Source of the DNA: Nocardia sienata NBRC 100364
GTDB taxonomy: Bacteria > Actinomycetota > Actinomycetes > Mycobacteriales > Mycobacteriaceae
Direction: 5' to 3'
Length of the DNA: 64,000 nucleotides
NCBI RefSeq assembly: GCF_001613205.1
Contig: NZ_BDBX01000039.1
Location: 62,001 to 126,000, forward strand
Positions 15,829-17,462 of this stretch are shown piece after piece. How positions within the stretch are numbered: the stretch's first letter is position 1; every line of letters begins with the position of its first letter. Both the position numbers and the translations under genes were made by a program. The notes below the pieces were generated by a model. It had not been told where the DNA came from. It worked only from the letters and a program-made list of their open reading frames with translations, and ran no database searches.

Positions 15829-16212
15829 ATGGCCACCCAGACACTGACGCAGCAGAATTTCGATGACGTAGTCACCAGTAACGACGTCGTACTCGTCGAT
15901 TTCTGGGCTTCCTGGTGCGGACCGTGCCGCAGTTTCGCCCCGACCTACGACGCGTCGTCGGAGAAACACCCCGATGTCGTGCACGGCAAGGTCGACACCG
16001 AAGCCGAACAGGGCCTGGCCGCGGCCGCCAATATCCAGTCCATCCCGACCATCATGGCCTTCCGCGAGGGTGTGCTCGTCTTCGCGCAGCCCGGGGCGCT
16101 CCCGCCCGCGGCGCTCGAGGATCTGGTGTCCCAGGTGAAGGCACTCGATATGGACGAGGTTCGTAAGCAACTCGCCGAGCAGCAGGCGGCCGACGGCGAA
16201 GCAGCCGAATAG
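15829..16212 (+). CDS. thioredoxin
   Basis: A 127-residue thioredoxin. The active site VDFWASWCGPCRSFAP has its redox cysteines at residues 30 and 33, and the cis-proline loop is SIPTIMAF. An extra C-terminal tail (EVRKQLAEQQAADGEAAE) is common in actinobacterial paralogues. ATG 15829 follows a good ribosome site (agaggacgtc); TAGGGT about 90 bases upstream may be the -10 box. It is probably one of several thioredoxins in the genome, and a strong terminator follows it. Confidence 0.95.
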   Translation: MATQTLTQQNFDDVVTSNDVVLVDFWASWCGPCRSFAPTYDASSEKHPDVVHGKVDTEAEQGLAAAANIQSIPTIMAFREGVLVFAQPGALPPAALEDLVSQVKALDMDEVRKQLAEQQAADGEAAE

Positions 16213-16221
16213 AATCGACGA

Positions 16222-16271
16222 ACGACGGCGGGCTCCACACTTTCCGGGGATGGTGTGGAGCCCGCCGTCGT
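16222..16271. terminator. bidirectional terminator
   Basis: A perfect 19-bp stem (16222-16240 with 16253-16271, acgacggcgggctccacac and its complement) with a 12-base loop sits between the converging thioredoxin and LeuA-domain genes. Confidence 0.88.
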
Positions 16272-16300
16272 GTCGACGTCCGTAAGCGGCCGGTAGCCCG

Positions 16301-16741
16301 CTAGCGCGGCGCCCCCAGGCGGTTCACGCTGGCGATCATCGCCCGCACCGAGGATTCCGCGCCGTCGGCGGCGAGGGCGGCGCCCCAGCCACGGCGCCCG
16401 TCGCATTCGCATTGCACGAAGGTCGCGGTGCCCGCCGCCGTGCGGCGCTGATGGAACCGCAGGATCTCGACGGGGTAGCCGGCTTCGTAGAGCGCCGAGG
16501 TCATGGCGGCGATGGGGCTGCCCGCCGCCACGACCGAACGGGACCAGCCCGCGAATTCGAGAGTCGCGGTGAAGGCGCCACCGCGCGCACCGGTGGACGA
16601 CCAGCCCGCGAGCCGGATCGGACCGGCGCATTCGCCGTAGCGGTCGTGGAATTGGCCGGCCGTCAGTTCCGCGCATTCGGTACGCAGGCTGCGCGGGGCG
16701 GCCGTGGTCAGGGCGTCGTTTTCCAGAGTCAGTGTGGTCAT
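16301..16741 (-). CDS. free-standing LeuA regulatory (allosteric) domain protein
   Basis: A 146-residue protein that matches only the C-terminal regulatory domain of 2-isopropylmalate synthase: FHDRYGECAGPIRLAGW, a central alternating strand region, SPIAAMTSALYEAGYPVEIL, and the closing GWGAALAADG-ESSVRAMIASVNR that resembles the LeuA end. There is no TIM-barrel catalytic domain, so it cannot make isopropylmalate alone. It could bind leucine as a sensor or modulate the full LeuA. The start is ATG 16741 (a GTG two codons earlier is possible). A Leu/Val leader peptide and attenuator hairpin lie just upstream, which supports a link to branched-chain amino acids. Confidence 0.75.
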   Translation of the reverse strand: MTTLTLENDALTTAAPRSLRTECAELTAGQFHDRYGECAGPIRLAGWSSTGARGGAFTATLEFAGWSRSVVAAGSPIAAMTSALYEAGYPVEILRFHQRRTAAGTATFVQCECDGRRGWGAALAADGAESSVRAMIASVNRLGAPR

Positions 16742-16787
16742 GAGCACGTAGGTCTTCCCAGAGATTGTCGGCAGGTTTGGGGGACCA

Positions 16788-16852
16788 GCAAAAGCAGAAA
16801 AGGGGGGCCCGCAGCGAGGGGGCCGGTCCGAATCAGACCCCGCTACGGCGGG
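16788..16852 (-). promoter_or_regulatory. transcription attenuator before the LeuA-domain gene
   Basis: On the minus strand cccgccgtagcgggg (16852-16838) pairs with cccctcgctgcggg (16821-16808) and is followed by CCCCCC-TTTT-CTGC-TTTT, a U-rich tract by high-GC standards. The upstream arm begins inside the last codons of the Leu/Val leader peptide, so a ribosome stalled on those codons would prevent the hairpin. That is the layout of a branched-chain amino-acid attenuator. Confidence 0.72.
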
Positions 16853-16931
16853 TTACTACTACGGCAAGTAGCCGACGAGCCGACTCCGCGGTACGCGAGA
16901 GGAGCACCGCACCGTCGCGATCTGCGAACAT
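16833..16931 (-). CDS. Leu/Val-rich leader peptide
   Basis: A 32-codon open frame, ATG 16931 to TGA 16833. The product starts MFADRDGAVLLSRTA and continues with ARRLLAVVVTRRSGV. Two Leu-Leu pairs and a Val triplet sit just before the attenuator stem, and the VVVTRRSG ending resembles ilv/leu leader peptides of corynebacteria and mycobacteria. A GTG at codon 9 could also serve as start. The role would be to stall the ribosome when charged Leu- or Val-tRNA is scarce and so let transcription pass into the LeuA-domain gene. Confidence 0.7.
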   Translation of the reverse strand: MFADRDGAVLLSRTAESARRLLAVVVTRRSGV

Positions 16932-17462
16932 CGGCGCGGCGCACAGGCCGGCGGCAGGAATTTGCACGGGGTCGAGAATAAAGACTCCCCGGGAAGATGG
17001 CAACCATATTCGCCCGCCGTTTCGCCTACCGCCGAGTACCGTTCTCCCTGGTCACCGGTAAGCAACCCGAAACGGCGCCGGAGTAGCGGTGGCCGAACAG
17101 GTGCCGCGCTGCCGACCATGAGACCCGAGTGATCCGCGTCGGCCGCCGACCACGCAGCGGCCGGCCCGCGGGCCCGCGCCTCTCCTACCGCGGAAGCGGT
17201 GCCTTCCCATGCCGATTCGGAGCTCTCGTGGTCGCCCCCCGGGACTGTCCTCGCCCCGCGCGCAGCCGGTGCGGCGTCGGCGGTGATGGACGGCCATACC
17301 GTCACGACACGCGGCCGAGCGGCAGGCCGGCCGACCGTGCTCGACTTCCGGCAACGCGCGGGTGACCTTCACCACACACTGCGCGCCACCCGGGCCGCGC
17401 TTCGAGAGCCGTCGGCACCCCCGAGCCCCGACACGCGAGCACGGCCGCCCCCGCGGGTGTGC
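16932..17462. other. intergenic region upstream of the leader peptide
   Basis: About 530 bases without a gene I can support. The minus-strand frame at 17052-17375 is arginine-rich with no recognisable domain. A plus-strand 28-codon frame starting at the ATG near 16998 (MATIFARRFAYRRV) is noted but unsupported. The promoter for the leader-peptide transcript should lie in its lower half, and the 3' end of the porin gene borders it on the right. Confidence 0.4.

Follow-up and report, generated by a model that had tools for sequence, protein, structure and literature searches.

A LEU-type leader peptide and pseudoknot preceding a stand-alone LeuA regulatory domain in Nocardia sienata

The trp, leu and ilv leaders of enterobacteria, together with the trp leader of corynebacteria, are the classical amino-acid attenuators. 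The LEU element found before actinobacterial leuA was described computationally by Seliverstov et al. in 2005 (PMC1262725), who left its mechanism open, and no later study of LEU elements was found in the openly licensed literature searched. The locus described here lies on the minus strand at positions 17003-16742 of the window, the whole 64,000-nucleotide stretch of Nocardia sienata NBRC 100364 that was analysed. It resembles the LEU element in several respects: a short leader ends inside stem 1, a pseudoknot built of the same two helices stands just upstream of a gene, no terminator is conserved, and a single covariance model detects both kinds of element. In contrast to LEU elements, however, it precedes only the linker and regulatory domain of LeuA rather than leuA itself, and its leader carries Val-Val codons in place of the Leu-Leu-Leu found before leuA. 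Strand D of the pseudoknot also has a second possible partner next to the Shine-Dalgarno site, the base stem that LEU elements form between Leu codons and the Shine-Dalgarno site lacks statistical support, and Nocardia leaders are longer by about 30 residues or more. Because the downstream gene encodes linker and regulatory domain only, the element is named LEU-type, as a variant; judged by sequence, it is a paralogue of the LEU element. With classical attenuators it shares control codons and a leader that is rich in the amino acid of the pathway and overlaps the 5' arm of a stem, but it has no intrinsic terminator/antiterminator pair, and its structure is a pseudoknot. The features of the locus are as follows.

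16975 to 17003, minus strand: sigma70-type promoter, TTGCCA-17 nt-TATTCT, from a scan and comparison with relatives
16833 to 16967, minus strand: leader peptide gene, (M)QIPAAGLCAAPMFADRDGAVLLSRTAESARRLLAVVVTRRSGV*, 44 codons plus stop with a GTG start, frame kept in relatives
16854 to 16871, minus strand: control codons CTA CTT GCC GTA GTA GTA (L L A V V V), from codon counts in relatives
16838 to 16848, minus strand: 5' arm of pseudoknot stem 1, CCGTAGCGGGG, overlapping the last leader codons, from covariation
16823 to 16828, minus strand: loop strand B, GACCGG, the 5' side of pseudoknot stem 2, pairing with strand D
16809 to 16819, minus strand: 3' arm of pseudoknot stem 1, CCTCGCTGCGG, from covariation
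16783 to 16788, minus strand: strand D, CTGGTC, the 3' side of stem 2 and alternative partner of strand E, from covariation and RNAalifold
16751 to 16759, minus strand: Shine-Dalgarno-like GGGAAG overlapping or abutting strand E, GACC, the alternative partner of D, from RNAalifold
16301 to 16747, minus strand: gene for the lone LeuA linker and regulatory domain, starting at GTG 16747 or ATG 16741
16222 to 16271, no strand assigned: 19-bp inverted repeat between the convergent thioredoxin and lone genes, seen in the sequence

The leader and the lone domain

The promoter is the sole sigma70-like site between 16200 and 17200, where shuffled sequences lead one to expect 0.1, and the leader start, GTG 16967, stands 7 nt past its end. 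Of 144 distinct relatives, 141 have a promoter of the same geometry followed, after 6-10 nt, by an ATG or GTG in frame with the leader; the gap is exactly 7 nt in 123 of the 144. This fixed short distance suggests that the leader is probably translated from a leaderless mRNA. An earlier note on this DNA had drawn attention to a 32-codon frame containing LL, LL and VVV. That frame is present at 16931-16836 on the minus strand (MFADRDGAVLLSRTAESARRLLAVVVTRRSGV), but it is the 3' part of the 44-codon leader, and the conserved start is GTG 16967 rather than ATG 16931. The closest relatives in the comparison set include N. rhamnosiphila, N. testacea and N. fusca; the group termed Mycobacterium-like below was equated with Mycobacterium by inference from its family, its abundance and the resemblance between its LeuA and that of M. 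tuberculosis.

Across these relatives the leader frame stays unbroken while its length ranges from 13 to 68 codons: Mycobacterium-like leaders have 13-16, most Nocardia leaders 39-68. The stop codon lies at 16835-16833, and an alignment of Nocardia with other members of the GTDB family gives the C-terminal consensus ...(L)LVV..R(R)SGV*. The two exceptions are N. paucivorans and N. brevicatena, whose leaders have one extra base after Val-Val; the resulting frameshift ends them early, yet LLLVVARP* remains, and control codons and a nearby stop thus survive the frame change. These shifted leaders (loci L019, L046 and L047) offer a natural test of which portion of the leader is important. The N-terminal extension of Nocardia leaders (VADRDxAxLxPLTAMVA-like; 16967-16872, minus strand) is conserved as well, and is missing from the 13-16 codon leaders of relatives.

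The gene that follows codes for 148 residues. The product matches only the regulatory (dimerisation) domain of LeuA, PF08502, in agreement with the earlier note, at 23.1 bits against a cut-off of 24.9. Among 34 members of the lone-domain family, PF08502 matches 28 (E up to 0.01) and a 2-isopropylmalate synthase model matches 33, and the family profile itself matches M. tuberculosis LeuA (E 3.7e-8), part of the linker included. Foldseek with an AlphaFold2 model returns M. tuberculosis LeuA (1sr9/3fig, with and without leucine) as the best PDB matches, followed by the regulatory domains of citramalate synthase. The lone protein therefore resembles M. tuberculosis LeuA in its regulatory domain and in part of the linker; unlike that enzyme it has no catalytic domain, and FHQ replaces the LeuA motif DYxEH.

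Of 148 Nocardia genomes searched, 147 carry the gene; the remaining one, 88% complete, gave a weak match only. Counting short open frames places it in 32 of the 37 genomes sampled from elsewhere in the GTDB family. Outside the family, the only short frames seen within the order came from fragmented genomes. In a tree of regulatory domains the lone domains form a single clade (100/100) on a long branch (3.9), and the tree does not place the clade relative to any source LeuA. The simplest reading of its origin is a duplicated leuA that kept the 5' element and the 3' domain and lost the catalytic part. The openly licensed literature yielded nothing specific on a stand-alone LeuA regulatory domain or on a mycobacterial leuA leader. 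Beyond the gene, the 19-bp inverted repeat is probably a terminator shared by the thioredoxin and lone genes; it was not flagged by the U-tract-based terminator scan.

Pseudoknot and probable pairing at the Shine-Dalgarno site

Downstream of the control codons the RNA can fold into an H-type pseudoknot, in which an 11-bp stem 1 joins 16848-16838 to 16819-16809 and the loop segment 16828-16823 pairs with 16788-16783. Covariation was assessed by aligning lone-gene elements jointly with 24 leuA elements (48 in all). The 11 pairs of stem 1 are 99.6% standard, 6 of them changed on both sides; the 6 pairs of stem 2, formed by B and D, are 98.2% standard with 3 changed on both sides. For both helices together, 99.1% of pairings are standard and 9 of 17 pairs are double-changed, with 68 double-change cells, a count matched by 0 of 500 shuffles. 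Sliding the partner strands out of register lowers pairing from 99.1% to 37-62%. Taken alone, 61 lone-gene elements show standard pairing in 99.6% of pair cells, and 18 of these sequences have a GC/AU exchange. Comparison across genomes establishes the leader, its control codons and stems 1 and 2; it also establishes that the element is homologous to leuA elements and the protein to the LeuA domain.

Among 179 lone-gene loci, a regular expression recovers the element at 177; one of the remaining two is truncated by the end of its contig, and the other has the element when read. With the covariance model built on the joint alignment, the N. sienata genome yields three strong elements, which precede leuA, the lone gene and a second leuA paralogue; Mycobacterium-like genomes yield two and others mostly one. 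An Rfam scan of 10 kb returned no relevant family. The third strong element (G000:C4:276719-276792, minus strand) lies outside the window before the second, divergent leuA paralogue, and the pair recurs in other Nocardia. In other actinobacterial orders, LEU-like elements with leader peptides also stand before leuB-like genes (L297, L299, L304) and before a different type of isopropylmalate synthase (L300, L301, L302), a distribution wider than the leuA-only picture of 2005. A short frame with QESMDR follows the element in L297, where it lies ahead of leuB, and in L298.

RNAalifold proposes that strand D has a second partner, strand E. The four core pairs of this helix are 92-97% unchanged and 95-100% standard in 60 sequences; because it shows little covariation, D:E is rated a likely alternative helix. 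When the 3' part is folded one sequence at a time, D pairs at the Shine-Dalgarno edge in nearly every case, and for much of the Mycobacterium-like group this helix spans 6-7 bp. The complementarity suggests a switch at translation initiation, since B:D and D:E are mutually exclusive and could together form a simple on/off device there. Exposure was modelled by masking the bases under a ribosome, either one halted at the Val codons while the pseudoknot is formed or one at the stop codon. Stalling left the Shine-Dalgarno region more open in 42 of the 59 modelled sequences, with a small mean change (0.44 against 0.35). Pairing of the 3' strand of the pseudoknot beside the Shine-Dalgarno site looks new.

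Two further helices were considered. A base stem joining the leader to the Shine-Dalgarno site (CUUCUCG:CGGGAAG) is seen in single sequences, with energies not below those of shuffles (median p about 0.5 in Nocardia). The other helix joins the Val codons to the spacer that precedes D (GUAGUAGC:GCUACUAC). It has support in the Mycobacterium-like group but none in Nocardia, and in non-Nocardia elements base pairing may be part of the reason why GTA GTA is kept.

Valine codons and models of regulation

Val-Val occurs in 133 of 136 distinct leaders, as GTA-GTA in 113 and GTA-GTT in 20, and two of the three leaders without it by this count are the frame-shifted, but still LLLVV-containing, ones of N. 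paucivorans and N. brevicatena. GTC and GTG, which make up 94.5% of Val codons in the likely genes of the window, are never used at this position; GTA contributes 3.1% and GTT 2.4% of Val codons there, and CTT 0.7% of Leu codons. GTA GTA GTA is found once in the 64 kb and, given the rarity of GTA and GTT, is far from a chance occurrence. Leu immediately precedes Val-Val in about three quarters of lone-gene leaders, while N. sienata has LLAVVV. By alignment, Val-Val is the invariant pair, and Leu is frequent but not universal. Leaders of full leuA, by contrast, carry LLL in 48 of 49 cases and VV in 0 of 49 (Nocardia and other actinobacterial orders). The Leu-to-Val codon change with target gene looks new; no report of it or of the lone-gene element was found in the openly licensed literature searched.

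These features make it somewhat probable that a LEU-type riboregulator, composed of a translated leader and the pseudoknot, drives the stand-alone regulatory domain via ribosome stalling. Transcription would probably begin at the leader GTG, and the leader would be translated at once. When charged tRNA-Val is short (in many species also tRNA-Leu), the ribosome would halt immediately before stem 1, on the rare GTA (CTT/CTA) codons; the stem would then fold downstream and allow strand B to capture D. With the pseudoknot formed, the segment containing the Shine-Dalgarno site and E would stay open and the lone domain would be made. With sufficient amino acids, the ribosome would reach the stop codon and cover stem 1 and B, leaving D to pair with E beside the Shine-Dalgarno site and keeping translation low. 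In the Mycobacterium-like group, pairing of the Val codons with the spacer may further count against the pseudoknot when the leader is idle. The favoured reading, in the same direction as the earlier note, is that the lone domain would be switched on by shortage of valine, and often of leucine. We infer the stalling, the direction of regulation and the function of the protein.

The earlier note had placed a GC-rich terminator hairpin with a U-tract here, in the classical attenuation layout. The overlap between the end of the leader and the 5' arm of a hairpin is real and conserved; the hairpin is the 11-bp stem of the pseudoknot and not a terminator. In N. sienata the stem is followed by CCCCTTTTCTGCTTTT, which is loosely terminator-like, but the scan of 16200-17200 contains no terminator-like site, and a U-tract after the stem is kept in only 21 of 144 relatives. 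The local single-strand fold is no more stable than shuffles (z -0.41), as expected where the true structure is a pseudoknot. Strand D, moreover, is conserved although it lies beyond the supposed terminator, which means that the transcript must continue past that point. Classical transcription attenuation via an intrinsic terminator is thus very improbable. Little better are the prospects of Rho-dependent or coupled transcription-translation control, in which the ribosome on the leader would shield its C-rich RNA from Rho with no Shine-Dalgarno switch. PMC1262725 suggested Rho-dependent attenuation for mycobacterial cys leaders and notes few rho-independent terminators in mycobacteria, but such a scheme leaves both the covarying pseudoknot and the D:E complementarity next to the Shine-Dalgarno site unexplained.

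More weight, though still an unlikely standing, is given to a pseudoknot that serves as the binding site of a regulatory protein, with the leader peptide secondary. PMC1262725 favoured protein binding, naming orthologues of the helicase-like M. leprae protein ML1624; the proposal derives from S. coelicolor leader mutations unfit for attenuation and from the lack of conserved unpaired bases for a small ligand. The very high sequence conservation of stem 1 and the loop is consistent with such a site. A pure protein site, however, needs neither frame nor codons, and the leader frame, rare codons and stop position are kept through changes of length and through the insertion in N. paucivorans and N. 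brevicatena, while the coded amino acid differs with the target gene. PMC1262725 (its ref. 22) reports S. coelicolor leuA leader mutants whose behaviour is at odds with classical attenuation. This work is the main objection to the ribosome-mediated model; it concerned leuA.

Valine, leucine and a possible role of the lone domain

LeuA consumes 2-ketoisovalerate, the precursor of valine. Because the enzyme uses up this precursor, damping LeuA in valine shortage is the most economical role for the lone domain, and in the stalling model the product might restrain LeuA under that condition. The lone protein probably acts on LeuA or as a ligand-binding partner. A bolder proposal, tentative and on balance doubtful, is that a free allosteric domain, made only on a stalled valine-coded leader, acts in trans on LeuA, for example in mixed dimers, and diverts 2-ketoisovalerate from leucine to valine, its leader having arisen from the LEU element of leuA by exchange of Leu for Val codons. 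If this is true, one RNA architecture reports two amino acids.

A Leu-coded leader before leuA and a Val-coded leader before the lone domain in one genome form a natural pair, which makes the question of the leader codons directly testable; should exchanging the codons also exchange the amino acid that induces, the sensor is leader translation. The stand-alone allosteric domain is proposed as an unstudied regulator at the valine/leucine branch point, present in nearly all sampled Nocardia and most sampled relatives.
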